Source: Paludibacteraceae bacterium
GTDB taxonomy: Bacteria > Bacteroidota > Bacteroidia > Bacteroidales > Paludibacteraceae
Reading direction: 5' to 3'
NCBI GenBank assembly: GCA_905235505.1
Contig: CAJOMJ010000014.1
Location: forward strand, 24,008 to 88,007
DNA length: 64,000 nucleotides
The position numbers and the translations under genes are program-made. The notes under the pieces are model-generated. The model ran no database searches, was not told the origin of the DNA, and saw only the letters and a list, made by a program, of their open reading frames with translations. This document shows, one piece after another, positions 1 to 63,830 of the stretch (the stretch's first letter is position 1; the number at the start of each line of letters is the position of its first letter).

Positions 1-6
1 AATAAT

Positions 7-215
7 CTACTAATAGCATACCAATGACCTGCTAATAATATACCAATACTCTCATAATGAAATACCAATAGTCGTCAAATAGCTTACTAATAATCACACA
101 ATAACATGCCGATAAGCATCCGATAGCCTACTAATAGCTTACTAATAGCCTACCAATACTCGCGCAATAGGCTGCCGATAGTTGTCTAATGACTTGCTGA
201 TTATCCGGTAATACT
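7..215. repeat. 11-bp degenerate tandem array upstream of parA
   Basis: From base 7 to 215 the sequence divides, without a single indel, into 19 consecutive 11-bp units such as CTACTAATAGC, ATACCAATGAC and TTACTAATAGC. Aligned by column, positions 7 and 8 are A and T in all 19 units, position 6 is always a purine, position 5 is a pyrimidine in 18 and position 4 is C in 15, giving a core CYRATA. The array runs off the left edge of the window, so its true length is unknown. The period equals one DNA helical turn, so the cores lie on one face of the helix. It ends about 90 bp before the parA promoter. Eleven is not a multiple of three and no gene is seen here. A protein-binding or bending role is inference. 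Confidence 0.85.
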
Positions 216-303
216 GGCATGGCAAGATTGCTGCAGATGTTTGATAATTGTGCGGGGGATATGGCTAAAAATGCGGTATGGCGGATAAGGGGATAGTAAA
301 GAA

Positions 304-335
304 TTTGGGTTTATCAACTTTTCTTTGTATCTTTG
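304..335 (+). promoter_or_regulatory. parA promoter
   Basis: TTTG at 304-307 and TATCTTTG at 328-335 are separated by 20 bases, an exact match to the Bacteroidetes housekeeping promoter (TTTG at -33, TAnnTTTG at -7). Transcription would start near 340, giving a leader of about 250 nt that contains the 44-bp repeats before the parA ATG at 590. Confidence 0.75.
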
Positions 336-365
336 CAGGCTAATTGGACTCCAACAGGTAGTCGG

Positions 366-545
366 ACCTGACATAAAGACCAGACATACTTGGGATGTAT
401 GCCCGATATACCTGACATAAGGACCAGACTTACTTGGGATATAGGTCCGATATACCTGACATAAAGACCAGACATACTTGGGATGTATGCCCGATATACC
501 TGACATAAAGACCAGACATACTTGGGATATAGGTCTGACAGACCT
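366..545 (+). repeat. Four 44-bp tandem repeats in the parA leader, with palindromes
   Basis: Four units of exactly 44 bp start at 366, 410, 454 and 498, each opening with ACCTGACATAA; a fifth partial unit follows. Each contains an inverted repeat whose arms change together: CATAC/GTATG in units 1 and 3, GGACC/GGTCC in unit 2, AGACC/GGTCT in unit 4. A perfect 15-bp palindrome (AGGTCT-GAC-AGACCT) closes the array at 531-545, 44 bp before parA. The core CCGATA seen in the 11-bp array recurs at 403, 447 and 491. The array is probably transcribed, so it may act as DNA operators or as RNA hairpins controlling parAB; the sequence does not decide which. Confidence 0.8.
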
Positions 546-589
546 GAAATAAAGGAATACTTAAGTGATACATAAAATCATAAACATAT

Positions 590-1354
590 ATGAAAATAAT
601 ATCGATAGCAAATCAGAAGGGTGGTGTGGGTAAGACCACGACTTCAATCAACTTGTCGGCAGCACTTGCTCAAGAGGGTAAGCGTGTGTTGCTGATAGAT
701 GCCGATCCTCAGGCGAATGCGTCATCGGGTTTGGGCGTAAATATACGTCAGTTGCAGACGACGATATATGAGTGCTTAGTAGGTGGCGAGCCTGCGAAGA
801 AGGCAATCATACCGACACAGCAGGAGAACCTGTTTGTGCTGCCTGCCCATATAGATTTGGTAGGTGCAGAGATAGAGATGATAAACATGCCTGACAGGGA
901 GTTGCTTCTTAGAAACCTATTGAAAGAGGTGGAAGGCGAGTATGACTATGTTATAATAGACTGTTCGCCGTCGCTTGGTATCATCACGGTTAACTGTCTG
1001 ACGGCTTCGGACTCGGTGATAATACCTGTTCAGTGCGAGTATTTTGCCCTTGAGGGTATAAGCAAGTTGCTGAATACGATAAAGATAATAAAGTCGAAGT
1101 TGAACCCGCAGTTGAATATAGAAGGTTTCCTGCTGACGATGTATGACAACCGCCTGAGACTTGCGAACCAAGTGTATGAGGAGGTGAAGAAGCATTTTGG
1201 TCCGTTGGTATTCAATGCCGTAATATCGAGGAATGTGCGTCTGTCGGAAGCCCCTTCGCACGGCATGTCGGTATTGACCTACGACCCGTCTTCCAAAGGC
1301 GCGCAGAACTACAGAGAGTTGGCTAAGGAGTTGATAGCCCGTCAGAAAGAGTAA
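590..1354 (+). CDS. parA: Chromosome-partitioning ATPase ParA (Soj)
   Basis: ParA is the Walker-type ATPase that moves ParB-parS complexes to segregate replicated origins; it acts on the nucleoid. The 254-aa product has the deviant Walker A motif KGGVGKTT at residues 10-17 with the signature first lysine, a switch I region with DADPQANA near residue 38, and a Walker B strand YVIIDCSPSLG near 120. Length is typical of chromosomal Soj proteins without an N-terminal HTH. It is followed after 28 bp by parB, the usual pair. No parS-like site (GTTTCACGTGAAAC type) was found in the window by eye. Regulation may involve the 44-bp leader repeats. Confidence 0.97.
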   Translation: MKIISIANQKGGVGKTTTSINLSAALAQEGKRVLLIDADPQANASSGLGVNIRQLQTTIYECLVGGEPAKKAIIPTQQENLFVLPAHIDLVGAEIEMINMPDRELLLRNLLKEVEGEYDYVIIDCSPSLGIITVNCLTASDSVIIPVQCEYFALEGISKLLNTIKIIKSKLNPQLNIEGFLLTMYDNRLRLANQVYEEVKKHFGPLVFNAVISRNVRLSEAPSHGMSVLTYDPSSKGAQNYRELAKELIARQKE

Positions 1355-1382
1355 ATGAACAAACATAAAGACGTAAGAACTT

Positions 1383-2246
1383 ATGAAACCACGCACAGGA
1401 TTAGGAAGAGGTTTGGATGTATTGATAGATACATCGGCAGTAGATACGAACGGGTCGTCGTCGATATCTGAGGTAGAGTTGTCGCTTATATCTCCGAACC
1501 CGAATCAGCCCCGAAGGAACTTTTCGGAGGAGGCTTTGGAAGAGTTGGCGTCGTCGATACGTGAGTTGGGTGTGATATCTCCCATCACCTTAAAGAAGAA
1601 CGAGGACGGCACATATCTGATAATAGCAGGGGAGCGTCGTTTCCGTGCGGCACATCGGGCGGGGTTGACATCAATACCTGCATATATCCGTACTGCGAAG
1701 GACGAGCAGGTGATGGAGATGGCACTGATAGAGAATATACAGCGCGAGGACTTGGATGCGATAGAGATAGCACTTGCCTATCAGCGCTTGATAGACGAAT
1801 ATCATCTGACTCAGGAGCGCATGTCGGAGCGTGTGGGAAAGAAGCGTGCCACGATAGCGAACTATCTGCGTTTGCTTAAGTTGCCGGCAGAGATACAAGT
1901 AGGAATAAAGGACAAGAACATAGACATGGGTCATGCCCGTGCCTTGCTGTCTCTCAAGACTCCTCAGGAACAACTGATGATGTACAAAAGGATACTGAAA
2001 GAAGACCTGAGTGTGCGCAGGGTGGAGGAGTTGGTAAGCAATCCTGAGGGTTGGGAAGAACAGAAGCTTGATATTCCGAAGAAGGCGAAGCTGACCTTGA
2101 AGGAGGAGCAGAAACAGTTAAGAAAGCAGTTGGGAGTGAAGGTGAAGATTACCTGCGATGAGGAAGGTAAGGGCAAGATAGTGATGCCGTTCAAGTCGCA
2201 GGAGGAGTTGCAGGAGATAATAGCGCGTCTTACAGATAAGGGTTGA
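1383..2246 (+). CDS. parB: Chromosome-partitioning protein ParB
   Basis: ParB is the CTP-dependent clamp that loads at parS and spreads along DNA. The 287-aa product has the N-terminal ParB/Srx nuclease-like domain with the CTP-binding GERRFRAAHRAG motif (residues about 81-92), the ENIQREDL motif near 117, a central HTH region (LTQERMSERVGKKRATIANYL shortened here by function, residues about 139-160) and a C-terminal dimerisation segment. It forms an operon with parA (28-bp gap) and its TGA stop overlaps the TTG start of the next gene. Confidence 0.96.
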   Translation: MKPRTGLGRGLDVLIDTSAVDTNGSSSISEVELSLISPNPNQPRRNFSEEALEELASSIRELGVISPITLKKNEDGTYLIIAGERRFRAAHRAGLTSIPAYIRTAKDEQVMEMALIENIQREDLDAIEIALAYQRLIDEYHLTQERMSERVGKKRATIANYLRLLKLPAEIQVGIKDKNIDMGHARALLSLKTPQEQLMMYKRILKEDLSVRRVEELVSNPEGWEEQKLDIPKKAKLTLKEEQKQLRKQLGVKVKITCDEEGKGKIVMPFKSQEELQEIIARLTDKG

Positions 2247-2941
2247 AGCGGCTGTTGTTGATATTGAGTTTATGTACGTTGTCTGCGGTATTGTATTCGC
2301 AGCAGACGGTAGAGACAGACACACAAGTGTTTGCGGCAGAGATAGGCAGTTCGGATTCTATCTCTGATATACCTATGAAGGATACGATAATGCCATTGCC
2401 TACGGGTGAATGGAAGCCCGACCCGATACGTGCGGTGTGGATGGGTGCTATCATTCCGGGATATGGTCAGATATACAACCGTTCGTACTGGAAACTGCCG
2501 ATAGTATATGGTACCTTCATGGGTTGCGCATACGCCATTGTGTGGACCAACGGCATCTATACTGACTATAAGACGGCATACAGAGACATAGCGACAGACC
2601 CGAATTATAACCCTCTTGACCCGACAAAATCGTATGTAGCGATACTGCCCAAGGGTTATGGAATAGATGCGGGTACGGGTTCTGCAGGTTCGATGGGCGG
2701 AAAGCAGAAATATACGACCTACCTGCAGAGCAACATGAACTCATACCGCAGATACAGAGATATAACAATAGTGGCAATGGTGGTGGCATATACATTGTCG
2801 TTGATAGACGCATACGTAGATGCGCAGTTGTATGACTTTGATATATCTACAGATTTGTCGATGAATATAGAACCAAGAGTGACACGTGACCCGTTGAACA
2901 ACAGAAACGCGGAGATAAAGGTGGCATTCACATTGAAATAG
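2243..2941 (+). CDS. DUF5683 exported protein
   Basis: A 232-aa protein with a signal peptide (MKRLLLILSLCTLSAVLYSQ). Residues about 50-110 carry the glycine- and tryptophan-rich P-x-x-A-x-W-x-G-A-I-x-P-G-x-G-Q-x-Y-N motif and hydrophobic segments of the DUF5683 family, which in Bacteroidales commonly sits between parB and a lytic transglycosylase. The biochemical role is unknown; envelope location is inferred. The start is TTG at 2243, overlapping the parB stop (TTGA), chosen because no in-frame ATG lies before the signal peptide. The next gene follows within 5-8 bp, so translation is probably coupled. Confidence 0.85.
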   Translation: MKRLLLILSLCTLSAVLYSQQTVETDTQVFAAEIGSSDSISDIPMKDTIMPLPTGEWKPDPIRAVWMGAIIPGYGQIYNRSYWKLPIVYGTFMGCAYAIVWTNGIYTDYKTAYRDIATDPNYNPLDPTKSYVAILPKGYGIDAGTGSAGSMGGKQKYTTYLQSNMNSYRRYRDITIVAMVVAYTLSLIDAYVDAQLYDFDISTDLSMNIEPRVTRDPLNNRNAEIKVAFTLK

Positions 2942-2945
2942 ATTG

Positions 2946-4214
2946 ATGATGAAGAGGTTGATACTGATTATATCATTAGTAACAGTCGGTGTCTGCGGAT
3001 ATTCGCAGAGTGCGGAGGAGCAGGAGATGGCGGCGGACACGATAGTGAAGATTGCGGCAGCGGACACCGTCCTGTCATATACTCAAGACGAGTTGGACAA
3101 GCATATATTAGATTTCGCCTTGTCATGGCTTGATACGACAGAGTGCACGGGCGGGGTAGATACGACCAGCCTGCCGGACTCGGTATATATAGCCAGACTG
3201 AGGTCGTTGCCATACATAATAGAGATGCCTTATAACACGGTGGTTCGCAGTTTTATAGACATGTATGTGGTTCGCCGTCCGCGTCAGGTGGCAAGACTGA
3301 GAACATTGTCGGGCTGCTATTTTCCGCTGTTTGAGGAGAAGCTGCACCAATACGGGTTGCCGGAGGAGTTGAAGTATCTGCCTGTGATAGAGTCGGGTCT
3401 GAATCCTGCAGCCTATTCGCCTATGGGCGCTGCGGGATTATGGCAGTTCATGCCCCGCACGGCAAAGAACTGCGGGTTGGAGGTAAATTCGCTTGTAGAT
3501 GAGCGTCTTGACCCGATTAAATCGACGGATGCGGCATGCAGGTTCTTGCGCTCACTGTATGTTATATACGGAGACTGGAACTTGGTGATAGCCGCATATA
3601 ACTGTGGTCCGGGCAATGTGAACAAGGCAATACGCCGTGCGGGCGACAAGCGTGATTTCTGGGATATATGGCCATATCTTCCTCGTGAGACGCGCTCGTA
3701 TCTGCCTATCTTCATAGCAGCTAATTATGCACTGAATTTCGCTGATGAGCACAATATATGTATGGCGCCGTTGTCACAGACGTTGGCTGCAGATACCATT
3801 GTGACAGACAGGCGGCTACATCTGTTGCAGGTGAGCGAGATAACGGGTATTCCGATGACGGAGTTGCGCAGACTGAATCCGCAATACAGAATGGACGTGT
3901 TGCCGGGTAGTAAACCATACACATTGTGTCTGCCGATAGACATGACGGGTGCTTTCCTGCAATATGAAGATACCATATACAAGCACCGTGCAGACTCGCT
4001 CCTGTATTCCCGCCGAGAGGTGATAGACCTTGCGCAGAAGCTGGATGCAGACGGTTTGCCTGCCACGGGGTCATATACTTATGTGGTGAAGAAGGGAGAT
4101 ACCTTGGGTGCGATAGCGAAGAAGCACAAGACGACAGTGGCTAATATAAAGAAGTGGAACCACTTGAAATCGGATATGATAAGTATAGGTCAGAAACTGA
4201 AGATGTACAGATAG
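2946..4214 (+). CDS. mltD: Membrane-bound lytic murein transglycosylase (MltD-like) with LysM
   Basis: Cleaves the beta-1,4 bond in peptidoglycan with formation of an anhydro-muramyl end; acts in the periplasm. It has a signal peptide (MKRLILIISLVTVGVCGYSQ), an SLT/goose-lysozyme-like domain at about residues 120-290 with the catalytic glutamate in ESGLNPAAYSPMGAAGLWQF, and a C-terminal LysM module (YVVKKGDTLGAIAKKHKTT) ending at the stop. A single clear LysM is visible at the C-terminus, and a second weak one around residues 280-330. About 422 aa. The start is ATG at 2946 or 2949; a TTG just upstream is less likely. It is co-directional with parAB and DUF5683. Confidence 0.93.
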   Translation: MMKRLILIISLVTVGVCGYSQSAEEQEMAADTIVKIAAADTVLSYTQDELDKHILDFALSWLDTTECTGGVDTTSLPDSVYIARLRSLPYIIEMPYNTVVRSFIDMYVVRRPRQVARLRTLSGCYFPLFEEKLHQYGLPEELKYLPVIESGLNPAAYSPMGAAGLWQFMPRTAKNCGLEVNSLVDERLDPIKSTDAACRFLRSLYVIYGDWNLVIAAYNCGPGNVNKAIRRAGDKRDFWDIWPYLPRETRSYLPIFIAANYALNFADEHNICMAPLSQTLAADTIVTDRRLHLLQVSEITGIPMTELRRLNPQYRMDVLPGSKPYTLCLPIDMTGAFLQYEDTIYKHRADSLLYSRREVIDLAQKLDADGLPATGSYTYVVKKGDTLGAIAKKHKTTVANIKKWNHLKSDMISIGQKLKMYR

Positions 4215-4230
4215 ACGAAAGGATGCAATA

Positions 4231-4548
4231 ATGGAGAAGGTGTATTACAAGATAAGTGAGGTGAGCGAGATGCTTGAGGTGCCTGCAAGCAAACTGCGCT
4301 ATTGGGAGAGGGTGATTCCTCAACTGAGTCCGCATAAGCAGGCGGGCAAGACGCGCCGTTTCTATACACCTGAAGATGTGGAACTGCTCCGCCGTATCAA
4401 GTTCCTGCGTGAGGAACAGAATCTGCCGATAGAGGTGGTGATAGCAACACTTAACACAGATGCGTCGGCAATAGATAAACGGATGAACACTATTGAGTTG
4501 CTGCAACAGTTGAGACAGGAACTGGTTGAGATAAGGAATAAGATATAA
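4231..4548 (+). CDS. MerR family HTH regulator
   Basis: A 105-aa protein that starts with the MerR winged HTH (YYKISEVSEMLEVPASKLRYW) followed by the wing segment RFYTPEDVELLRRIKFL and a short coiled helix. It lacks any C-terminal effector-binding domain, as is usual for the short MerR proteins of Bacteroidales. It lies 16 bp after mltD, so it is probably the last gene of the parA operon. Target genes are unknown. Confidence 0.88.
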   Translation: MEKVYYKISEVSEMLEVPASKLRYWERVIPQLSPHKQAGKTRRFYTPEDVELLRRIKFLREEQNLPIEVVIATLNTDASAIDKRMNTIELLQQLRQELVEIRNKI

Positions 4549-4686
4549 ATGCCCGTTGGCGGCGGTAAGAATAAGCACCGTTGCAAGGGTATGGATAAAG
4601 AGAGGCATGACTTGCCACAGACAATGCTACAGCATAAAGGAAAGTGTAATTAACACGATATTTACAACATATATTATCAATCAAAT

Positions 4687-8170: not shown

Positions 8171-8191
8171 GTATGATTATAAGTAAACATA

Positions 8192-8231
8192 AAACCCGAA
8201 TCATCAAGACAGTAATGATTGATTCGGGTTT
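8192..8231. terminator. Bidirectional hairpin terminator
   Basis: A perfect 12-bp inverted repeat (AAACCCGAATCA at 8192-8203, TGATTCGGGTTT at 8220-8231) with a 16-nt loop lies between the convergent acyltransferase gene and the gene at 8238. A-rich and T-rich flanks suit termination from both sides. Confidence 0.8.
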
Positions 8232-8237
8232 GTCTTA

Positions 8238-9898: not shown

Positions 9899-10003
9899 AA
9901 CGAAGGACATCTTTTATTCTATCTTCAAAAGTGTTTATTTCACGCAGTTATATGTGCAGATGATAGCAGTTAGCATGGTTGTTGTTTTGCAAATTTGTTC
10001 GTC

Positions 10004-11173
10004 TTAATACATTAAACCGAAAGCCCATAACGGGATGATATTATCTACCGCATATTCTATATCGTCACGAACGACAAAACTATTCGGAATATCCTGAATT
10101 TGTTTCTTGCCTTTCTTTCTTCCTCCTACTTCAAACGTATAGTTTCCAATACAAAAATCACTTTCGCGGGAAGCCGCTACATTGTGTACAACGCGTGTTT
10201 GGTTATAGAAGAATGTTTCCCTGAGGTTCCCGATTTCCACTTCTTCTCCCACCATAGCATAAAGCATGTTGGTATTATCTATATATACCTTTTCCATTTT
10301 GCCCAAGCCTCTCATTCCACATGTATTATCACGTAGCATTCCAATCATTCCTGCCCGCTCCAAGTATGCCAGATAATCCGGAATCACATTCCTGCTTATC
10401 TTCAGTTCATTCGCTAAAGCCTGTGCCTCAGGCTTATAGGGAACATTAGCAGACATGATACGCAGCATCTGAAGAATCTTCCGTCCTGTAGAGAGGCTGA
10501 TATGAGCGTATTGTACAATATCTGCCTCAACTGTCTGTCTGATTATCTGTTCGAGACGGGTGTAAAATGCTCCTTCGCTTGTAAAAGGATAGTATCCCTT
10601 ACGCAAGTACTCCTTGAAATAAGGCAGCGGATGCTGAATACTCCCCATATGCGCTTTCCCTTCTAAAATCTCCTGTAAAGAAAATATCGGAACCTCCACA
10701 TGATGCACCATTTTCAGATACTCTCTCAGAGACAGCCCGTACATATGGTCTATCACCATCCTGCGGCTTAAATCCGCCTCGCCATCCAATAAATCCAATA
10801 TTGAAGAACCCGTTACAAATACTTTCAGACCGGGATGCGTATCATAAATCTGCTTTAACTCACGGCTCCATCCTGTATATTTGTGTACCTCGTCGATGTA
10901 TAAATGCTCTCCACCGTCTTTGACGAACTCATCTGCCAATTCTATCAATGTATGGGTTGTAAAATAACTATGGTCAGCTGATACATATAATGCATTTTCT
11001 TGGGGATTATTCGCTATGTGCTGTAAGACCATCGTGCTTTTTCCGACACCTCGCGGGCCTGTCAAACATACCAGACGCAGGTTCCAATCTATCTGATTGT
11101 ATTTGTAACGTTGAAAAGCATTATCCACTTGGGACAGCAGTTCTTTCATATATGTCTGCAATGTTCTGTCCAT
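10004..11173 (-). CDS. AAA ATPase with DUF4143-like C-terminal nuclease-like domain
   Basis: A 389-aa member of the AAA_14 ATPase family common as stand-alone cassettes in Bacteroidales. Walker A is GPRGVGKST near residue 40, Walker B HLYIDEVHKY near 96, sensor region VFVTGSSILDL near 119. The C-terminal DUF4143-like part ends in ESDFCIGNYTFEVGGRKKGKKQ, resembling the acidic strand pair of a PD-(D/E)xK nuclease fold with the last charged residue altered (E-x-G rather than E-x-K). Function of the family is unknown. It is a separate transcription unit: its own promoter (11285-11316) and palindromic leader precede it, and it splits the surrounding glycan genes. Confidence 0.88.
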   Translation of the reverse strand: MDRTLQTYMKELLSQVDNAFQRYKYNQIDWNLRLVCLTGPRGVGKSTMVLQHIANNPQENALYVSADHSYFTTHTLIELADEFVKDGGEHLYIDEVHKYTGWSRELKQIYDTHPGLKVFVTGSSILDLLDGEADLSRRMVIDHMYGLSLREYLKMVHHVEVPIFSLQEILEGKAHMGSIQHPLPYFKEYLRKGYYPFTSEGAFYTRLEQIIRQTVEADIVQYAHISLSTGRKILQMLRIMSANVPYKPEAQALANELKISRNVIPDYLAYLERAGMIGMLRDNTCGMRGLGKMEKVYIDNTNMLYAMVGEEVEIGNLRETFFYNQTRVVHNVAASRESDFCIGNYTFEVGGRKKGKKQIQDIPNSFVVRDDIEYAVDNIIPLWAFGLMY

Positions 11174-11193
11174 ACCATATAAATCCTACTTGT

Positions 11194-11275
11194 GCACAAC
11201 TATTAGTGCATATTTCTGTTAATTTTGCACTACTTATAGTGCGTATTTTCACATTACGTGCACAACTGTTAGTGC
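11194..11275 (-). repeat. Three 16-bp palindromes exactly 33 bp apart
   Basis: Sites at 11194-11209, 11227-11242 and 11260-11275 each read GCAC-N8-GTGC on both strands (for example GCACTACTTATAGTGC, whose arms GCACTA/TAGTGC fit only in part through the centre). Starts are 33 bp apart, three helical turns. They lie between the ATPase promoter and its ATG, so within the mRNA leader. They could be operators for an autoregulator or RNA hairpins. The rest of the interval 11174-11542 holds the promoter and no visible gene. Confidence 0.75.
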
Positions 11276-11284
11276 ATTTCAACG

Positions 11285-11316
11285 CAAAGGTATTACTTTT
11301 TTCTGATATATGCAAA
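11285..11316 (-). promoter_or_regulatory. Promoter of the AAA ATPase gene
   Basis: On the minus strand TTTG (11313-11316) is followed after 20 bases by TACCTTTG (11285-11292), an exact Bacteroidetes promoter. Transcription would start near 11280 and pass through the three palindromes before the ATG at 11173. Confidence 0.75.
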
Positions 11317-11542
11317 TATTTCTATAACTATTTAGGATATTTTATTAGAATCATATATGATTTATATGTACAAATAATGACCGACAGCATAGCGCTCTGT
11401 TTCTATTGGATATTCAATTGTCTTTTAATATATTATACTGCGGTAAGCCGAGGAGGCATCCATCTAAAGCTAACATTTTAGGATGCAAAAGATATGACAA
11501 TTTCTTATGATATTCGCAATAAACATAAGCGTTCTGCCTTGC

Positions 11543-14999: not shown

Positions 15000-15012
15000 A
15001 TTCTTTTGTGTT

Positions 15013-15509: not shown

Positions 15510-15522
15510 TATTATTTATGTT

Positions 15523-18119: not shown

Positions 18120-19139
18120 TTACTGAAATGCCTCCCAGCCTTGTGCTCTCAATGTTATCTCCTCCCCGTTTCTGCCTATCAGGTTGCAACCGTATTCCTT
18201 TTTCGTTATGTGACCGATGATATATACATCGTCCAGCGGAATCAGTTTCTCGTAGTCGTCTATGCTGACGGTGAACAGTAACTCATAGTCTTCTCCGCCG
18301 TTCAATGCGCAGGTAACTATGTTCAGGTTCATCTCCTCGGCTAATACTGCAGCCTGATAATCAATGGGTATCTTGTCTTCATATACAGCACATCCGCAGT
18401 CCGACTCCTTGCAGATATGCATCAATTCGCTCGACAGACCGTCGGAGATATCCATCATCGCCGTCGGGTGTATGCCTGCCTCTTTCAGTTGCTTCACTAT
18501 GTCAAGTCTTGCCTCGGGTTTCAGTTGCCTTTCAAGCAGATACTCTTTCCCTTCAAATGCGGGCGTGCCTTCAGGGTTCGCCTGCATCACAATCCTCTCC
18601 CTCTCAAGCAGTTGCAGTCCCAAGTAGGCGCTGCCGAGGTTGCCTGTGCAGCATATAAGGTCGTTCAACTTGGCTCCGTTGCGATATACAATATCGCTTT
18701 TCTTTGCTTCACCTATGCAAGTGATGCTTATGCAAAGACCTGTGAGTGAGGCGGTAGTGTCGCCGCCAACAAGGTCAACACCGTAGTTCTTGCATGCAAG
18801 ACGTATTCCGCTGTACAACTCTTCGATGTTCTCCACGGAGAAACGCTTTGATATACCCAGACTTACCACCATCTGCGTCGGGGTGCCGTTCATTGCGCAT
18901 ATATCACTTATGTTGACCACTGCCGCTTTGTATCCGAGATGTTTGAGGGGCACATATTCGAGGTTGAAATGCACTCCTTCAAGCAGTAGGTCTGTGGTGA
19001 CCAATGTGCGTCTGTTGTGGAAGTTAAGCACTGCCGCATCGTCGCCCACACCCTTCTCTGTGCTCTCGTTTACTGTCTTTATCTTCTCTGTCAGGCGTTC
19101 TATGAGCCCGAACTCACCCAGTTCTTTTATCTCTGCCAT
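18120..19139 (-). CDS. thiL: Thiamine-monophosphate kinase
   Basis: ThiL phosphorylates thiamine monophosphate to thiamine diphosphate with ATP, the last step of cofactor synthesis; cytosolic. The 339-aa product has GVGDDAAVLNF near residue 32 (magnesium and substrate aspartates), VVNISDICAMNGTPTQMVVSL near 78, DLVGGDTTAS near 119 and MMDISDGLSSELMHI near 212, all ThiL/PurM-like motifs. It is the first gene of the minus-strand operon; its promoter is at 19208-19239 and a 22-bp repeat fills the leader. Confidence 0.95.
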   Translation of the reverse strand: MAEIKELGEFGLIERLTEKIKTVNESTEKGVGDDAAVLNFHNRRTLVTTDLLLEGVHFNLEYVPLKHLGYKAAVVNISDICAMNGTPTQMVVSLGISKRFSVENIEELYSGIRLACKNYGVDLVGGDTTASLTGLCISITCIGEAKKSDIVYRNGAKLNDLICCTGNLGSAYLGLQLLERERIVMQANPEGTPAFEGKEYLLERQLKPEARLDIVKQLKEAGIHPTAMMDISDGLSSELMHICKESDCGCAVYEDKIPIDYQAAVLAEEMNLNIVTCALNGGEDYELLFTVSIDDYEKLIPLDDVYIIGHITKKEYGCNLIGRNGEEITLRAQGWEAFQ

Positions 19140-19199
19140 TGTTGTATTTTATGTTTGCAGTTGTTGCCTTTTATATCTGCAGTTGTTGTGTATATTCTG
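19134..19199 (-). repeat. 22-bp repeats in the thiL leader
   Basis: TGCAGTTGTTG occurs at 19156 and 19178 and a related TGCCATTGTTG at 19134, all 22 bp apart, with T-rich second halves. The first unit includes the thiL start codon. The array lies between the thiL promoter and the gene, so it is transcribed. Confidence 0.6.
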
Positions 19200-19239: not shown

Positions 19240-19401
19240 TTCTCCCATACTAATTCTATGCTATCGTCAAAGTGTAGAGATGCGACACTGTCACGTCTCC
19301 CACTACCACCAATGTATATACGCCCCTCAGTCACATTTCAATTCTTATCGTCGTCTCTGATATCCCTCGCCCCTCATGTTCTCCCCGTCTCTCTCTCCGG
19401 A

Positions 19402-19512
19402 CCCCTTCTCTCCTCTCTCCCGCCCCCGTCTCTCCTCTCTCTCAACCCCACATCTCCTCTCTTCCCAACCCCACATCTCCTCTCTCCCGTCCCCGTCTCT
19501 CCTATCTCCCCA
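19402..19512. repeat. Polypyrimidine tract with 22-bp period
   Basis: About 170 bp (19356-19530) are almost pure C and T on the plus strand. Within it, CCCC-N4-TCTCCT motifs recur at 19402, 19424, 19446, 19469 and 19491, i.e. steps of 22, 22, 23 and 22. No gene is seen. Homopurine-homopyrimidine DNA of this kind can form triplex structures; a role is not known. Between it and 19621 nothing else is recognised. Confidence 0.65.
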
Positions 19513-19620
19513 ATTTCTGCCTCCCCGTGCTCCATAATCACCTCATATTCTTACTCTTACGACCATCAGCACGGTAAAAGCCAAGAAATCACCACATAAT
19601 TGCCATATAATCAATCACTT

Positions 19621-19686
19621 TACTATGTCGTTACTATGTGATTACTATGTGATTACTATGTGATTACTATGTGATTAGTATGTGAT
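19621..19686. repeat. Six 11-bp tandem repeats upstream of ruvA
   Basis: Six direct copies of TACTATGTGAT (first with CG for GA, last with G for C) run from 19621 to 19686 with no gaps. The array ends 56 bp before the -33 box of ruvA. The unit is the same length as that of the parA array and shares TTACTA with it across the unit boundary. Confidence 0.9.
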
Positions 19687-19742
19687 TAAACCAAATCTGC
19701 CCCCGCTGCTTGCGCAGATTTCGCTGTCACTGAACCTGCGGA

Positions 19743-19774
19743 TTTGGCAGTTTCAGAAAAAAGCATTATCTTTG
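19743..19774 (+). promoter_or_regulatory. ruvA promoter
   Basis: TTTG (19743-19746), 20 bases, TATCTTTG (19767-19774). The ATG at 19784 begins 9 bases after the -7 box, so the mRNA would have almost no leader. Confidence 0.75.
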
Positions 19775-19783
19775 CGGCTCATT

Positions 19784-20386
19784 ATGATAGACTATATTAA
19801 AGGACAGATAGCAGAACTGGCTCCCACCTATGCTGTAGTGGAGGCTGCCGGAGTAGGATATGAAATCAACATAGCCCTGCCCGTCTATACCGCGCTTATT
19901 GACAAGACAGAAACCAAGTTGTATATCACTGAGATAATCCGTGAGGACACTCACGACCTCTTTGGCTTTCAGACCAAGGTCGAGCGCGAATTGTTCCTCC
20001 TTCTCACAAGCGTGAGCGGCATAGGGGCTAACACGGCGAGACTTATCATGTCAAGTTTCAGTGCAGCAGAGGTGCGTCAGATTATCGCAACAGGTAATGT
20101 GCACGCCCTCAGTCAGGTGAAAGGTCTCGGAGCAAAGACTGCCCAGCGTGTCATCGTTGACTTGAAAGACAAAGTCCTCAAGATAGATATTGATGCGGCT
20201 GACGGCGCACCCGTGTCCGCCACTGTCACAGGTGTCAATAGCGAGACAAAGCAAGAGGCTGTCTCAGCACTCACTATGCTCGGCTTCTCTGCCCTTGCAA
20301 GTGGTAAGGCGGTTGACAAGATTCTGGGCTCAAACCCCGATGCTGCCGTCGAAGAAGTTATACGACAGGCATTGAAGATGCTGTAA
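19784..20386 (+). CDS. ruvA: Holliday junction helicase subunit RuvA
   Basis: RuvA binds four-way DNA junctions and loads RuvB for branch migration. The 200-aa product has an N-terminal OB fold (MIDYIKGQIAELAPTYAVVE), two helix-hairpin-helix motifs (LLTSVSGIGANTARLIMSSF near 70-90 and LSQVKGLGAKTAQRVIVDL near 107-125), and the flexible C-terminal RuvB-binding domain (ALTMLGFSALASGKAVDKIL). A longer frame open from 19682 is discounted, because the promoter lies inside it and homologues start at MIDYI. Confidence 0.95.
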   Translation: MIDYIKGQIAELAPTYAVVEAAGVGYEINIALPVYTALIDKTETKLYITEIIREDTHDLFGFQTKVERELFLLLTSVSGIGANTARLIMSSFSAAEVRQIIATGNVHALSQVKGLGAKTAQRVIVDLKDKVLKIDIDAADGAPVSATVTGVNSETKQEAVSALTMLGFSALASGKAVDKILGSNPDAAVEEVIRQALKML

Positions 20387-30961: not shown

Positions 30962-31045
30962 GCCCAGATGGCGGAATCGGTAGACGCGCTGGTCTCAAAC
31001 ACCAGTAGGTTCACCCCTGTGCCGGTTCGACCCCGGCTCTGGGTA
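30962..31045 (+). tRNA. tRNA-Leu (anticodon CAA)
   Basis: An 84-nt class II tRNA. Acceptor GCCCAGA (30962-30968) pairs with TCTGGGT (31038-31044) with one G-T pair at the end; discriminator A; anticodon stem CTGGT/ACCAG holds the loop CTCAAAC with anticodon CAA at 30996-30998; a long 15-nt variable region follows; the T arm is GCCGG-TTCGACC-CCGGC. CCA is not encoded. It reads UUG codons. Confidence 0.95.
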
Positions 31046-33563: not shown

Positions 33564-33727
33564 AAATTTATATTTTAATTAAGTGAATATCAAATACCTA
33601 ATTCATTAATTAGCATCGATTTTCCCACCGTGGCCCTTATGAAAGGCTCGGTTGGAGCTTTACTTAAAAAGTCTCTTGATGCTTCGATATCTCAAAGAAC
33701 CTATGCCAATCTTCCGAAAAGCGAGTG

Positions 33728-47451: not shown

Positions 47452-47488
47452 GGTATTTTGATATTAAATTTACTTATCGGAATCAGTT

Positions 47489-48877: not shown

Positions 48878-48913
48878 ATAATCAATACTTATAGTTAATG
48901 AAGAATATATTTG

Positions 48914-48959: not shown

Positions 48960-48968
48960 AAAAGACGA

Positions 48969-49907: not shown

Positions 49908-49959
49908 TGTGTGAAAAATTTAAAATTAATAATTAAACATGTTTATTTATTAATCGCGG

Positions 49960-51615: not shown

Positions 51616-51662
51616 AATCGTCAATTTTTATAATTGTCAAATACTGAAATATTCAAATTGGA

Positions 51663-54620: not shown

Positions 54621-54653
54621 GATAATTAAATTAATGTTATTATTATGTTTGTT

Positions 54654-56525: not shown

Positions 56526-56548
56526 AATTACTAACTCTAATCTCTCAA

Positions 56549-57649: not shown

Positions 57650-57707
57650 GTGTATGTTGCCTTTGTTTTATTTGTTCTACCATGAGAGGTCGTATCAGAT
57701 TTTGTTC

Positions 57708-58652: not shown

Positions 58653-58667
58653 GGTAATTATTGGTTG

Positions 58668-60056
58668 TTACATTTTGTCTTTGAATAGTTTCATCATCTT
58701 ACCGTTCCAGCCGGCAGGGTAGTCATGCCCCATCTCGGGTGCGATGATATACTCTTTGTCCTCCTTAGGTGTCTGCAGGTTGTTGAACGGCACTATGTTG
58801 GTGCGCGGCGGGCATACATTGTCCTGCAAACCGCTGCTGGCAAGCACGGGGCACGAGATGCGTGTGGCAAGGTTCTTGGTGTCGAAATACGAGAAGAAAA
58901 CAATCATCTCCTCGTCGGTCATCGAACCCCTGCAATCCTTTGCGAGTTCCACTGCCAGACCGCCTGTCTTCTGGGCCTCGTCGAAGTCTCCGAGGAATGC
59001 CACGTTGGCAGCGATAGCACTGAAAGGATAGTCGCTCAATGCTGCTGCTGCGTATGTCAAGGCACCTCCCTGACTCGACCCCTCGGCAAACAACTTGGTC
59101 ATGTCGCTGGTCTCGCGGGTGGCCATGAAACGCACTGCCTGCACACAATCCATATATGCGCCGCGATAGTAGTAGCTGTCTTTGTCGCCGAAGTGGTACG
59201 AGAACCAGTCATCGTAGGTGTTGTCCAAATCCCCTAATCCGTCAGGCTCGCGGGATGACTCCGGGCGGTTGTTGATATACTGCCCGCGGTGCGACAGATA
59301 GAACTCGGCATAACTTGAACTGCTCCCGCTCGGGCAACTTACTTTCGCCTTCGTATGCTGCGTGTCGTAGCCGTAGAAGTGCATAATCACGGGGTGCTTC
59401 TGCCCGTCTTGCGGCTCACAGTAGTATCCGCGTATCACAACCGGTTCGCCCGTCAGACCGTCCGGCACCGAGTTCAACTCAACCATATAGACCTTTCTCG
59501 TAGCCGAACTCTTGGCAGGCAACTCTATCATGTTGACACCCATGTCAATGGCGGCAAGCTGGTCCTTGGCTGTCTGCCAGAACTCATCATAGTCAGCCTG
59601 TTTGTTTGGAGCGGATACAATCTTGTCAGGGTCAACAGCAAAATTGAAAGCGCTGCGTGCCACCTTGCCGTTGACGCTGCAGGTAGCTCTGTATATCCCG
59701 GGTTCCAACGGGTCGGTGGTGGTGATGACTATGTCTTTCTTGCCGTTAGCCGCAATCTCTGCACTGTCGGTAATGGTAACCACAGCCACTTTCGCGTCAG
59801 TGGTAATCTTCACCTTTGCCTCTGCCATAACGGGCACCGCATTAGGATTCTCGGCATGTATGGTAAACGATGGCTTGCCCGAATATACCCAGTCTTCCGT
59901 GACAGGTACTGACAACTTGAGCGGACTCAGGTCGGCAGGCGTAGTCTGCTCCTGCGGAACGGTCTGCTCGGGTGGAGTAGGGCTCTGGCAGGCATTGACT
60001 GACATAACCAATGTCATGATAAGTGAAAGAAGGATTATATTCATACCTTTATTCAT
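58668..60056 (-). CDS. Acetyl-xylan-esterase-like (AXE1) lipoprotein
   Basis: A 462-aa lipoprotein (signal MNKGMNIILLSLIMTLVMSV then NACQS). An N-terminal beta-sandwich (residues about 50-145) precedes an alpha/beta-hydrolase of the acetyl xylan esterase/cephalosporin deacetylase type: VIRGYYCEPQDGQKHPVIMH, the nucleophile in FAEGSSQGGALTY (serine near 330), and VLASSGLQDNVCPPRTNIVP and MGHDYPAGW with the acid and histidine. It probably removes O-acetyl groups from the imported glycan. Confidence 0.84.
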   Translation of the reverse strand: MNKGMNIILLSLIMTLVMSVNACQSPTPPEQTVPQEQTTPADLSPLKLSVPVTEDWVYSGKPSFTIHAENPNAVPVMAEAKVKITTDAKVAVVTITDSAEIAANGKKDIVITTTDPLEPGIYRATCSVNGKVARSAFNFAVDPDKIVSAPNKQADYDEFWQTAKDQLAAIDMGVNMIELPAKSSATRKVYMVELNSVPDGLTGEPVVIRGYYCEPQDGQKHPVIMHFYGYDTQHTKAKVSCPSGSSSSYAEFYLSHRGQYINNRPESSREPDGLGDLDNTYDDWFSYHFGDKDSYYYRGAYMDCVQAVRFMATRETSDMTKLFAEGSSQGGALTYAAAALSDYPFSAIAANVAFLGDFDEAQKTGGLAVELAKDCRGSMTDEEMIVFFSYFDTKNLATRISCPVLASSGLQDNVCPPRTNIVPFNNLQTPKEDKEYIIAPEMGHDYPAGWNGKMMKLFKDKM

Positions 60057-60119
60057 CGTTTACTCTTAATATGGTTGTTTCTTCCGTATAGACGCGACAC
60101 CGTCACGTCTCAACTCTCT

Positions 60120-61355
60120 TTATATCTCTTTCAGATAGTCGTTCAGATTGACAATATTGAAGGCGTTGTAATACTTGTCCATATTGTGCTCAATGCGCAT
60201 CAACACTACCTCTTCTGCGTTTATACCGAGGTGGTTGAGGTTGTCGTAGAGCACTTGGCGGGCAACCAATGCCTCAGGTTTCTGCCAGATATAGCGGCAA
60301 CCTGTCATCACGAGCCATAACTGGCGCTCCGGCGTACATTCTTTGAGGTCTTTGCCCACCTCGTCGCCATGAAGCCATTTCTTCCAGCGCCCTGACTCGT
60401 AAACGCATTGCCACAGCACATCGGTCATGTGACTCAGTTGTGCCACTTTGCCCTCTGCATATTGTTTCTTCTCCTCTTCCTCCAACTCTGCCAATGCCTC
60501 ATACTCGTTCATGGTGAACTCCGGACCTACGTTGGCGGCACCCATGCCTGCCTTCGGATAATCTTCGGGGTTGTCCACATCGTCAGAGTAGTGACCTTTG
60601 ATATAACTGCCGTAAGGGCGTACCTTGGCTGTCAGCTTGCGTGCCACTTCTGCATCGAAGAAAGTGGTGTGCAGGTCGGTTCCCACCTTGCCTACTATGA
60701 AGCACGGCCATATATCGTCAAGTCCTACCTCGTGCAAACCTGCCTTGAGTCCTTCGAGGAAAGTGTCGAATGTCTTCTCGTCTGCCAGGCCGCCGTGCAC
60801 TTCTTCTGTACCTACCTCGTATGAGATGGGAGGCAGACCGTGCGATTTGCGGAAGTTCTCTGCATGCAGAATCAGTTCCACAGTGCGTTTCACAACCACA
60901 TGTATGTCTATTATCTGCCCTTTCGGAAGGAAAATATCTACTGTCGGGTCAACATGTATAAGGTCGTAGCCGGCAAGTATGGCTGCCTCATAACTCTCTT
61001 TTACACCCTGCATGGCGCGTTCTGTGTCCCAACGCTCAATCGACTGTTTGTCTTTCAACCATGGTCCGCCGTGGTCGATTGCCACTACGTAAGGACCCGT
61101 GTAATGCACTGCTGCTGCTTCGCGGGCAAGAATCTTGGTGAACTCCGCCTGTGTCATGCCGGTATATCCGCCATCGCAGTCAACCTGGTTGAGAGTGGTG
61201 GCAAAATAGATGGGCGAGTTGTTGCGCTTGGCTGCGCGGAACGATGCCTTGATTACTGACAATGAGTTCGGGCATGCTGCAAACAATGTGCGTGGCACAC
61301 CTGTCTTTTGTTTCAGTTCCTCCATTACGCGGAGAATGTTTTCTGTTTTTGCCAT
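60120..61355 (-). CDS. GatZ/KbaZ-like tagatose-bisphosphate aldolase subunit
   Basis: A 411-aa protein of the PF08013 family. Markers are GVPRTLFAACPNSLSVIKAS near 20, GPYVVAIDHGGPWLKDKQSI near 95, YDLIHVDPTVDIFLPKGQI near 137 and SYEVGTEEVHGGLADEKTF near 185. In enterobacteria GatZ/KbaZ stabilises the class II aldolase GatY/KbaY, which is not encoded in this window. The protein may act alone on another ketose phosphate, or its partner lies elsewhere. Located 50 bp after agaS. Confidence 0.88.
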   Translation of the reverse strand: MAKTENILRVMEELKQKTGVPRTLFAACPNSLSVIKASFRAAKRNNSPIYFATTLNQVDCDGGYTGMTQAEFTKILAREAAAVHYTGPYVVAIDHGGPWLKDKQSIERWDTERAMQGVKESYEAAILAGYDLIHVDPTVDIFLPKGQIIDIHVVVKRTVELILHAENFRKSHGLPPISYEVGTEEVHGGLADEKTFDTFLEGLKAGLHEVGLDDIWPCFIVGKVGTDLHTTFFDAEVARKLTAKVRPYGSYIKGHYSDDVDNPEDYPKAGMGAANVGPEFTMNEYEALAELEEEEKKQYAEGKVAQLSHMTDVLWQCVYESGRWKKWLHGDEVGKDLKECTPERQLWLVMTGCRYIWQKPEALVARQVLYDNLNHLGINAEEVVLMRIEHNMDKYYNAFNIVNLNDYLKEI

Positions 61356-61404
61356 AATATAATAATGTATAATGTGTTAGTGTTATTAAGTTGCTTATAT
61401 TCGC

Positions 61405-62520
61405 TTATTCATAGATGGTGACGCCCTCCACTACACGGTGTATGTTGCCGCTTACCGAAGGTGCGTCAGGGTTGAGCCCGTGACTCAGTGATGCATAGAA
61501 GCCGAGCAGTTGACCTACCAGTACGTAAGGCACTATGCCGTACGAACCGGTCTGCTGCTTGTTGTAAGGCATCTTCACTGTGAGGTCGGCATTGACTTCC
61601 CCGAGTTGGGGCACGTCGCCGGCTATCACTATCAGTTGTGCCACAGGGTGGTTGTTGCCGCTCACCTGGCGCACGAGGTCGCGCTCGTAACGCTGCACCT
61701 TCTCGTCGTCCGTCATCAGATATACTACTATCGACTTGTCGTTTACCACTGCTTTCGGACCATGACGGAAACCGAGGAAACTGTCAAACTTGCAGACCAC
61801 TCCGCCGTCGGTGAGCTCCTGAAGCTTCAGGTGGCACTCTTCAGCTATACCTTTCAGCGCGCCCGAGCCGAGGAACACTCCACGCTCGAACTTGCGCTCC
61901 GCAATAGCCTCCAGACTGCTCTCGTAGTCCGCTATCACTGCCTCCGCATTCTTGGCGGTGTTCTCTATCAGCTGCTCGTCGTCCTCAAGAGTGTCTATAT
62001 GTGCAAGCATCAGGCAGGTGAGAAGCATGGTGGAGAAACTGCTGGTCATGGCAAGACTCTTGTCATCGGTCTCCTCGGGCAAAAGCAATAAAAGAATGTT
62101 GTCCTTGCCGCTCTCTGCTGCCAAATGACCGTTCTTGTTGCATGTAATATATATGTGTGCCACGTTCTTGCACAACTTGTTGGCTATGTTCACCGCTCCT
62201 ACACTCTCCGGACTGTTGCCCGAGCGCGCAAAACTGATAAGAAGCAACGGGCGCTCAGGGTCGAGTAGATACTCGGCATGAGTGATGAGGTCTGTCGTAG
62301 GCACGGCACGTACATTGGTCCAGATGCCACGCATAACGGGTTCTATTGCATCACCTATGAATGCCGATGTGCCGGCGCCCGTCAGCACAATGTCGGTATC
62401 AGGAGTGAGGTACTTGTGCATGAATGCACTTATCTCTGACTTCGACGCAAGCAATGCCTTGTACTCGCGACGCCACATTTCCGGCTGCTGGTGAATCTCT
62501 TTGTGTGTGAATGATTCCAT
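61405..62520 (-). CDS. agaS: SIS-domain amino-sugar-phosphate deaminase/isomerase
   Basis: A 371-aa protein with two SIS folds. VLTGAGTSAFIGDAIEPVM near 46 and ISFARSGNSPESVGAVNIA near 95 are the sugar-phosphate loops, and SFLGFRHGPKAVVNDKSIV near 243 the third. It matches AgaS, which turns galactosamine-6-phosphate into tagatose-6-phosphate and ammonia. It is the first gene of the long minus-strand locus, divergent from the DeoR-type regulator. Confidence 0.87.
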   Translation of the reverse strand: MESFTHKEIHQQPEMWRREYKALLASKSEISAFMHKYLTPDTDIVLTGAGTSAFIGDAIEPVMRGIWTNVRAVPTTDLITHAEYLLDPERPLLLISFARSGNSPESVGAVNIANKLCKNVAHIYITCNKNGHLAAESGKDNILLLLLPEETDDKSLAMTSSFSTMLLTCLMLAHIDTLEDDEQLIENTAKNAEAVIADYESSLEAIAERKFERGVFLGSGALKGIAEECHLKLQELTDGGVVCKFDSFLGFRHGPKAVVNDKSIVVYLMTDDEKVQRYERDLVRQVSGNNHPVAQLIVIAGDVPQLGEVNADLTVKMPYNKQQTGSYGIVPYVLVGQLLGFYASLSHGLNPDAPSVSGNIHRVVEGVTIYE

Positions 62521-62605
62521 AATATATTCCTTATATAATAATTATCCTGCTTTGTTCTGCCCGCCTATACCTCCGTTCTGCACATAACGGGGATTTAACG
62601 GTGTG

Positions 62606-62801
62606 CAAAATTACAAAAATAGAATATTGTTTCGAAATATATTTTTTATGTTTTTAAACATAGTTTTGAAACTATATGTGAAATACCTGTCATATAGTTA
62701 GTTACAGGCAAATGTAGCGCTAATTCGTATTTCGAAACCTTTCGAAAATGATATTTTCATTACGTTACTGTTTCGTATGTGACATATATGTATTATCTTT
62801 G
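62606..62801. promoter_or_regulatory. Divergent promoters and candidate operators of agaS and its regulator
   Basis: On the minus strand TAATTTTG (62606-62613) is a -7 box for agaS with a weak TTTCG at the -33 place; on the plus strand TATCTTTG (62794-62801) serves the regulator, with a weak -33. Between them is a perfect palindrome ATAGTTT-TG-AAACTAT (62660-62675) and several TTTCGAAA-like motifs (62631, 62732, 62741). DeoR-family AgaR operators carry repeated TTTC boxes, so these are good candidates. The interval is A+T-rich and holds no gene. Confidence 0.6.
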
Positions 62802-62844
62802 CACCTGTCTTGGAGTTTGTTAATCATCTTAAAGGGTTAAGACC

Positions 62845-63642
62845 ATGAATGATACATTGCCAAAGCAGAACATGTCATCTGCGAAAGAACGCCGCGCTCT
62901 CATTCTTAGTAAATTGGAGAGCAAAGAAGAGGTTCTCGTCACGGAACTGAGTCGAGAACTGGGTATCTCGGAAGTTACTATCCGGAAAGACCTTACCATT
63001 CTGCAGTCGCGCAACCTGCTCGTGCGTACGCGTGGAGGTGCCATACGACGACCCGTGGAGAACCTCAACGAAGATACTGCAATATCCAAGAAACGCATGT
63101 TCTATTTCAAAGAGAAAGAGCGTATCGGCGAAGAAGCGGCGAAACTCATCAACGAAGGCGACTTCATCATGCTTGATAGCGGCACCACCACCATGGAGGT
63201 GGCGCGTCATCTCGACCGATTCCAGCACCTTGACATTATCACCAATGCCATGAATATCGCCACCGAACTGATGCGGTACAAACGTTTCAATGTCGTCATG
63301 CTCGGTGGCAATGTCCGCATCAATTCCCACTCTACCGTTGGACCACTTGCCCTCTCCGTACTCAAGAACTTCAACGACTACAAGCTTTTCCTCGGCGTGG
63401 ACTCCTTCTCACTTGATAGCGGCGTCTCCACACCGAATCTCGAAGAAGCACTGCTCAATCAGCAGATGATACAGCAGGCGGGGAAAGTCATTGCCGTCTT
63501 CGACTCTTCCAAGTTCAACAAACGCAGCTACGTACACATCGCGGAACTTTCGCAGATTGACTGTATCATCACCGACAATGGCCTGCCGTCCGGCATGAAA
63601 AACAGGCTTAAAAACGCCGGCATAGAAGTGCGCATCGTCTGA
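62845..63642 (+). CDS. DeoR/GlpR-family regulator of the glycan locus
   Basis: A 265-aa repressor. Residues about 14-70 are the DeoR HTH (VLVTELSRELGISEVTIRKD) and residues about 85-250 the sugar-phosphate-sensing domain (GDFIMLDSGTTTMEVARHLD; FLGVDSFSLDSGVSTPNLEE). The ligand is likely a phosphorylated intermediate such as GalN-6-P or tagatose-6-P, by analogy with AgaR. It is divergent from agaS. Its last 12 codons and stop have become the first unit of the 44-bp array that follows. Confidence 0.92.
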   Translation: MNDTLPKQNMSSAKERRALILSKLESKEEVLVTELSRELGISEVTIRKDLTILQSRNLLVRTRGGAIRRPVENLNEDTAISKKRMFYFKEKERIGEEAAKLINEGDFIMLDSGTTTMEVARHLDRFQHLDIITNAMNIATELMRYKRFNVVMLGGNVRINSHSTVGPLALSVLKNFNDYKLFLGVDSFSLDSGVSTPNLEEALLNQQMIQQAGKVIAVFDSSKFNKRSYVHIAELSQIDCIITDNGLPSGMKNRLKNAGIEVRIV

Positions 63643-63830
63643 CCCGTCTTCTTAAAAACGCCGGCATAGAAGTGCGCCTCGTCTAACCTGTATTCCTGAA
63701 AACGCCGGCATAGAAGTGCGCCTCGTCTAACCTGTCTTCCTGAAAACGCCGGCATAGAAAAGCGCATCGTCTGACCCGTCTTCTTAAAAACACCTGCATT
63801 GAAGTGCGCCTCGTCTAACCCGTCTGACAA
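63611..63830. repeat. Five 44-bp tandem copies of the regulator 3' end
   Basis: The motif CGCCGGCATAGAAGTGCGC recurs at 63615, 63659, 63703, 63747 and (as CACCTGCATTGAAGTGCGC) 63791, each exactly 44 bp apart. The first copy is coding (KNAGIEVRIV and stop); the rest are downstream. Copies differ at a few sites (CATC/CCTC, CTGACC/CTAACC), so the array is not brand new. The unit length is the same as in the parA leader although the sequence is unrelated. Confidence 0.9.

Follow-up and report, generated by a model that had tools for sequence, protein, structure and literature searches.

We analyzed a stretch of 64,000 nucleotides from the draft genome of a Paludibacteraceae bacterium (contig CAJOMJ010000014.1, positions 24,008 to 88,007 of the forward strand), hereafter called the window, in which an initial annotation had listed seven intergenic repeats with unit or spacing lengths of 11, 22, 33, or 44 bp. 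All seven were found at their places and with their spacings upon reading, in a repeat scan, and by lag analysis. The tested arrays with 11-bp units were dispersed copies of small elements, and the reading that we favor, with a probability of roughly 55%, is that the genus holds several families of dispersed intergenic elements of ~100 to 130 bp with an 11-bp pitch, perhaps multisite protein-binding arrays that spread as nonautonomous repeats. The repeats of the window and the genes adjoining them are the following.

1 to 215: degenerate 11-bp array with units like TACCAATAAGA and a 22- and 44-bp superstructure, the right end of a longer array upstream of parA-parB.
366 to 554 (365 to 554 in the scan): 44-bp array of 4.3 copies, nested as 11 > 22 > 44, in the predicted leader of parA.
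590 to 1354, plus strand: parA, encoding an AAA_31/ParA ATPase by domain match.
1383 to 2246, plus strand: parB, by domain match.
10004 to 11173, minus strand: AAA_14/DUF4143 gene, by domain match.
11192 to 11277: three partly palindromic 20-bp sites, TGCAC...GTGCA, at a spacing of 33 + 33 bp, upstream of the AAA_14/DUF4143 gene.
18120 to 19139, minus strand: AIRS-type gene by domain match, thiL-like according to the initial annotation.
19125 to 19199: 22-bp array of 3 copies at the start of the AIRS-type gene.
19391 to 19512: C/T-rich 22-bp array (one unit of 23 bp) of 5.4 copies, without 11-bp substructure by scan and lags.
19610 to 19709, plus strand: family A element between the AIRS-type gene and ruvA, with a leader of ~21 bp, five units TTA[C/G]TATGTGA (19631 to 19685), and a tail of ~24 bp.
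19682 to 20386 (open reading frame [ORF]): ruvA, Pfam RuvA, with the domain from residue 35.
63607 to 63825: 44-bp array of 5 copies without 11- or 22-bp substructure, the unit being a gene end including the stop codon.
63846 to 63880: 11-bp array of TTTCTGCATAA, 3.2 copies (score, 49), absent from the list of the initial annotation.

The internal period of each repeat was assessed as the self-match fraction of the stretch against itself at each lag, with neighboring lags as the comparison. An 11-bp lattice was present in three of the seven repeats. Self-match at lag 11 was 0.95 in positions 19621 to 19686; in positions 1 to 215, it was 0.53, 0.60, and 0.61 at lags 11, 22, and 44, respectively, versus 0.26 to 0.28 at lags 10, 12, 21, and 23, and in positions 366 to 541 it was 0.88 at lag 44, 0.58 at lag 22, 0.39 at lag 11, and 0.40 at lag 33, versus 0.09 to 0.21 at adjoining lags. 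The other four repeats were without 11-bp substructure and had periods of 22, 22, 33, and 44 bp. Self-match at lag 22 was 0.70 in positions 19134 to 19199 (0.29 at lag 11, which is background) and 0.65 in positions 19402 to 19512 (0.40 at lag 11, versus 0.38 and 0.32 alongside); it was 0.65 at lag 33 in positions 11194 to 11275 (0.31 at lag 11, which is background) and 0.86 at lag 44 in positions 63611 to 63830, with lags 11 and 22 at background. The three sites at 11192 to 11277 look like a tandem operator without 11-bp substructure. The unit of the array at 63607 to 63825 is the 3′ end with the stop codon of a DeoR-type regulator gene (62845 to 63642), followed by four further copies downstream. 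That all multiples of 11 are higher-order forms of one lattice holds for 1 to 215 and 366 to 541 and is excluded by the lags for 19134 to 19199, 19402 to 19512, 11194 to 11275, and 63611 to 63830. The array of 1 to 215 starts ~335 bases before window base 1, which is L002:912, and has 36.8 copies at L002:577-959; the 44-bp array at 366 to 554 is a single copy in the genome.

Arrays were called by Tandem Repeats Finder at a score of 50 and counted as noncoding when they lay outside ORFs of 100 amino acids (aa) in our own ORF scan, which misplaces some arrays. In the window, 10 arrays lay outside clear coding sequence (365 to 554 counted); the unit was a multiple of 11 in 7 rows, two of which were parts of one array, and was 9, 16, and 21 bp in the remaining three. 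The pattern of multiples of 11 that had been described for the window as a whole thus fits 7 of its 10 noncoding arrays and not the other 3. In a sample of 464 kb from the same genome (a draft of 2,415,063 bases in 67 contigs), comprising the window and 20 further 20-kb stretches, 49 intergenic arrays of any unit length were found, whereas five dinucleotide shuffles gave 0.4 on average; the array at 365 to 554 was labeled coding and hence is not among the 49. Multiples of 11 accounted for 21 of the 49 arrays and for 15 of 41 with the window excluded. The fundamental unit was 11 bp in 10 arrays, 10 bp in 9, 22 bp in 7, 44 bp in 2, and 88 and 99 bp in one each, with other lengths at 3 or fewer.

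Across 1.56 Mb from 36 sister species of the genus (≥20 kb from 18 of them and <6 kb from 11), the preference was sharp: the unit was 11 bp in 38 of 106 arrays, 10 bp in 2, and 12 bp in 1. This sample was nonrandom, most stretches being the initial 20 kb of the first contig (or, for two species, of the second) of a draft genome. Multiples of 11 made up 41 of the 106, and 33 or 44 bp was the fundamental unit of none. The 11-bp peak persisted at a score of 40 (56 of 169 arrays; 10 bp, 7; 12 bp, 9) and also at 60 and 70, and the 38 arrays (score, 50) comprised 24 distinct units after merging units within two mismatches. Lengths of 7/14 and 8/16 bp were also favored in these genomes. In 446 kb of stretches (several of them short) from 20 genomes of the order's other families, 0 of 31 arrays had an 11-bp unit and 1 had a 22-bp unit, so that multiples of 11 amounted to 1 of 31; at a score of 40, 1 of 47 arrays had an 11-bp unit. 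Escherichia coli was uninformative as an outgroup, with only 3864 bases counted as noncoding. The initial annotation's view that chance alone would not favor one length was upheld by these counts, and the excess it predicted at 11, 22, 33, and 44 bp was borne out by the census against shuffles and relatives at 11 and 22 bp and not at 33 and 44 bp, where numbers were too small. A single 11-bp module behind all repeats had to be given up, since most 22-bp arrays are without 11-bp substructure and 7/14, 8/16, and 10 bp are favored too.

Comparison of 52 arrays with 11-bp units yielded 14 pairs with units 0 to 1 base apart, versus 0.2 expected from letter shuffles, and 8 of the 14 were between species. 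Flanking proteins (ORFs of 80 aa within 4 kb) were in common in 0 of 10 between-species pairs of like arrays, several of which had edges and the order of unit variants in common. All eight 11-bp arrays that were searched genome-wide were multicopy. Within one genome the copies were scattered over many contigs, and like copies in different species had no flanking genes in common. The tested 11-bp arrays are dispersed copies of small elements, and the copying mechanism suggested by the initial annotation is supported in this other sense.

Family A, that of the window's array, was present at 15 loci in its own genome (clusters counted), two of them only as TTAGTATGTGA. Three tandem copies of TTA-N4-GTGA were found in 20 of 61 genomes, all 20 within the 37 of the genus. 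Of 41 genus genomes, 12 contained family B, 26 family C, 14 family D, and 11 family E. Copy numbers reached 13 for family B and 15 for family C (some of whose matches overlapped family A), and family D had five copies in the window's genome. In the window's genome, family C matched twice, once in the array to the left of parA at 77% identity and once at a family A locus; families A and C are therefore related. Three further arrays were picked as singletons without a like unit in the sample. The unit of L047 had three copies in its own genome and none in the other 40 genus genomes; that of L040 had two copies in its own genome and two in G005 (2 of 41 genomes); and that of L050 had two copies in its own genome and matches in 20 of 41 genomes. 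The family of L050:15084-15131 had 50 partly overlapping matches in G033, far above the number elsewhere, as if recently amplified. The three singletons strengthen the case for dispersal and leave that for a binding protein as it was. The family of the TTTCTGCATAA array was also present at L035:6824-6857 of the window's genome.

The families are unlike in sequence and alike in their exact 11-bp pitch. Of the 13 family A arrays that are complete, 9 had five perfect units and the others 6, 4, 3, and 2, and two more arrays stop at contig ends; ~21 bases upstream and ~24 bases downstream (starting TTAAGCC) were conserved above background at most positions. Family B (12 copies, 127 to 131 bp between ends set by eye) keeps the same order of unit variants, and downstream of its array come an AT-rich palindrome and CTTTTTG. 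This palindrome, TATATATATAC-3 nt-GTATATATATA (L283-L292, L121, L147), has its center in both orientations, as if a hairpin had been flipped. Family C has approximately six units that alternate between GTGA and GTTA/GTTG, a 22-bp superstructure that recurs between species. Leader and tail were conserved in the aligned families A, B, and C, which measure ~100 to 130 bp overall and often have about five units. Unlinked copies were ~80 to 95% identical across leader, tail, and the order of unit variants, which argues that whole elements were copied.

The closest known system is BrickBuilt of Porphyromonas gingivalis, a dispersed intergenic minisatellite miniature inverted-repeat transposable element (MITE) with 19 copies and 1 to 22.8 units of 23 bp, in which a leader and a tail enclose spacerless head-to-tail units and some copies have IS5-like terminal inverted repeats (PMC4596501; this report and those below as far as their accessible text goes). 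The likeness lies in the probably common order and in intergenic, dispersed, head-to-tail units between leader and tail; unlike BrickBuilt, with its one family and 23-bp unit, the present elements have 11-bp units, fall into several unlike families, showed no inverted ends, and in family A mostly have five units. Although dispersed, noncoding, and multicopy, they were not assigned to MITEs of the BrickBuilt type for lack of inverted ends. Their units are repeated head to tail, as in minisatellites, and abut directly, without the unique spacers of clustered regularly interspaced short palindromic repeats (CRISPR). The 22- and 23-bp tandem direct repeats of P. gingivalis W83 (reported in PMC4596501) are like the 22-bp class of the window and of the named loci described below and unlike the 11-bp families, a comparison made by length and not by sequence. 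Intergenic heptamer direct repeats such as TAACTGA, known from Beggiatoaceae, Cyanobacteria, and five Bacteroidetes, likewise have a short exact unit and many intergenic sets of few copies each, and they recall the separate 7/14-bp class in the genomes studied here; the 11-bp families differ from them in unit length, and for the heptamers a single sequence and no leader or tail are described in the accessible text (PMC4679880). Bacterial genomes also have a sequence periodicity of ~11 bp, in E. coli concentrated between genes (PMC4132750, PMC516772). That periodicity is a phase of A/T dinucleotides, whereas the repeats described here are of entire 11-mers, with signal in G/C letters as well. 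No account of a preference for 11-bp units was found in the literature within titles and the beginnings of abstracts, with subscription papers outside the search.

On the reading that we favor, the elements would spread as nonautonomous repeats, and homogenization of their units in register would give the 22- and 44-bp superstructure of some arrays. More tentatively, a putative DNA-binding protein might read the whole array, one protomer per 11 bp, which is one turn of supercoiled DNA; because the array would be read as a whole, its sequence could drift and its spacing could not. It is possible, although speculative, that a length-measuring copier or a reader counting one supercoiled turn acts in the genus, some other Bacteroidales favoring 22 bp likewise. 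A period of ~11 bp is commonly ascribed to negatively supercoiled bacterial DNA (PMC4132750), and this link is disputed (PMC7537859). Helical phase, to which the initial annotation had pointed, may underlie the 11 bp. After masking of arrays and of ORFs of 50 aa, a residual excess at lag 11 was found in the genus (z = 7.5; A/T letters, 5.1; G/C letters, 5.1) and, weakly, in the window's own genome (z = 2.8; G/C letters, 3.6), with no such excess in the outgroup families (z = 0.9) or the named loci (z = 0.0). Because G/C letters carry the lag-11 signal too, helical phasing of A tracts is excluded as its whole cause. Lags 8, 10, 20, 21, and 22 were also raised in the genus (z = 8.6, 4.1, 4.6, 6.2, and 4.7, respectively), and the residual signal may therefore be of mixed origin, in part ordinary helical periodicity and in part the 7/8-bp class. 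Raised lags at multiples of 3 in one lag scan came from leftover coding sequence.

Several observations weigh against the favored reading. The residual at lag 8 matches that at lag 11 in strength, and the 7-, 8-, and 10-bp arrays in the same genomes are not explained by a pitch of one turn. Terminal inverted repeats were absent by the mean best complementary score of element ends, set by eye, versus shuffled ends (family A, 5.23 versus 5.42, 13 copies; family B, 4.75 versus 4.92, 12 copies; family C, 5.33 versus 5.31, 12 copies). Target duplications were not found in 13 family A copies (longest flank matches of 0 to 4, null mean of 3.35), a weak test because the element ends are not known to the base. 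The GTGA portion of the unit is the variable portion in family C, and therefore no single core is conserved across families; the conserved TTA and GTGA in the TTA-N4-GTGA search were imposed by the pattern itself, and the reversed control of this pattern also matched G011 (14) and G005 (1). Families B to E had been picked for like units in two species. The 38 arrays of the sister species were spread over 11 of the 36, with G011 alone contributing 9, and in G028, the nearest species by ParA (84%), 100 kb held 1 intergenic array and none of 11 bp, which indicates that 11-bp arrays are dispensable.

Simple chance combined with selective listing of 11, 22, 33, and 44 in one window is a highly improbable account. 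It would fit the three intergenic window arrays of 9, 16, and 21 bp that lie outside the pattern and the four of seven listed repeats without 11-bp substructure, and 33 and 44 bp remain unproven; for 11 and 22 bp, however, it is refuted by the censuses. Multiples of 11 make up 15 of 41 arrays elsewhere in the same genome and 41 of 106 in sister species, versus 1 of 31 in other families, and these counts and the shuffles exclude it as the cause. We also doubt strongly that a duplication process with a built-in length, such as one supercoiled turn, an ~11-base primer, or a staggered cut, copied any sequence without selection. The 24 distinct units at one length in the sister species, the ordinary gene end copied at 63607 to 63825, and the sharp peak at 22 bp (27 of 82 arrays, versus 3 at 21 bp and 2 at 23 bp) that unrelated units form at the named Bacteroidales loci are what such a process might leave, yet 8 of 8 tested 11-bp arrays are dispersed copies and thus not independent duplications, 7- and 8-bp arrays are abundant in the same genomes, and neither 33 nor 44 bp occurs as a fundamental unit in the sister species.

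Inheritance of the 11 bp from one ancestral satellite, which spread and whose sequence was replaced by slippage and in-register homogenization with the period kept, appears unlikely to us. The faint 11-bp periodicity outside detectable arrays in the genus, the frame TTA-N4-GTGA common to families A and C, and the periodicity that by eye seems to continue through changing units beside arrays (L268, L269, and the family B leader) are consistent with it, but, close families aside, the units resemble one another about as little as letter-shuffled ones do (1193 of 1326 pairs 4 to 6 mismatches apart, versus ~1233 in the null), and the drift to 10 or 12 bp that it would entail is rare (2 and 1 arrays versus 38). 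Regulators of the OmpR/PhoB type bind 11-bp direct repeats, and the arrays might be ordinary operators of several such regulators, each family one regulon, which we judge quite improbable. The 11-, 22-, 33-, and 44-bp arrays of the window's genome favor divergent regions (8 divergent, 7 tandem, and 0 convergent, versus 3.4, 9.3, and 2.3 expected by length), the family A unit can also be read as GTGATTA followed by four variable bases, and some copies adjoin TAnnTTTG, which we take to be a promoter-like motif, or precede a start codon. Against this reading stands the ~80 to 95% identity of unlinked copies over leader, tail, and unit order, which points to copied whole elements; moreover, in sister species 7 of 38 arrays lie between convergent genes, where 4.3 would be expected and there is thus no depletion, and 3 of the 12 family B copies precede relatives of one gene, the other copies having no common neighbor in short stretches. 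The gene following the family B element at L284, L288, and L292 (species G015, G004, and G030) encodes a protein starting MAK-SNQDYS-RRGKL.

Arrays of 22 bp were also assessed at 80 named parA loci (L172-L251), mostly titled Prevotella, Bacteroidaceae, or Bacteroidales. There, 27 of 82 arrays had 22-bp units, compared to 3 of 21 bp, 2 of 23 bp, and 4 of 11 bp. These 22-bp units were mutually unlike (e.g., L234, L210, and L215), and L234 had five different ones in 19 kb. Their mean match at lag 11 was 0.21, versus 0.25 in shuffles (24 tested), and a lag-11 match with P < 0.05 was found for 1 of the 24 arrays tested at named loci, for 1 of the 3 from sister species, and for 1 of the 7 from the window's genome. 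A doubled 11-bp lattice is excluded for most 22-bp arrays of the named loci, which have no 11-bp substructure. Most 22-bp arrays are a class separate from the 11-bp arrays and common to other Bacteroidales, and the length preference of the window is a mixture of 11-bp dispersed elements, the 22-bp class, a likely 33-bp operator, and a gene end duplicated in 44-bp units.

Head-to-tail repeats of exactly 11 bp that prove, where tested, to be dispersed multicopy elements are unusual, and here several unlike element families are tied by exact unit length alone. This makes the origin of tandem-repeat length in bacteria testable as a duplication step, inheritance, or a protein reading DNA turn by turn. 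It is also a warning that seemingly unrelated repeats at one length may conceal element families: three sample singletons (L047, L040, and L050) proved to be multicopy. A recent survey of short tandem repeats across the tree of life covers, by its accessible text, units of 1 to 9 bp (PMC12699852), and the 11-bp class would therefore be invisible in it.

Degenerate 11-bp repeats extend over ~490 bp (L002:577-1069) upstream of parA-parB, from beyond the left edge of the window into it. The parC region of plasmid R1 contains two sets of five 11-bp repeats that are bound by ParR; the five tandem 11-bp units recall those found here, but parC is one plasmid centromere and the present elements occupy many chromosomal loci. 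Within 1.5 kb upstream of parA at 29 loci of the same genus, one 11-bp array was found (L004:183-232, ~1.3 kb away), and a 16-bp array lay directly before parA at L022:1455-1498. A conserved array before parA that acts as a centromere is thus unsupported.

The 10-bp arrays of the window's genome are one dispersed CTAAACAACT-like family with ~10 loci in the sample, and its arrays reach 15 units with a 20-, 30-, and 40-bp superstructure. Its loci include the following.

L035:13527-13611
L036:6063-6141
L038:9592-12779
L048:4982-5096
L049
L051

A palindrome resembling repetitive extragenic palindromic (REP) sequences, like GAGACGCGACACTGTCACGTCTC, recurs in the same genome and is contained in the units of the 44-, 88-, and 99-bp arrays; its sites are these.

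L034:11944-12027
L041:18573-18802
L043:1789-2085
window, ~19274 to 19302

A search of the window and five element loci against Rfam 15 at the gathering score gave no match for the elements; elsewhere in the window it returned a SAM-I/IV riboswitch (RF01725, minus strand) and one tRNA, at 33584 to 33687 and 30962 to 31045, respectively.

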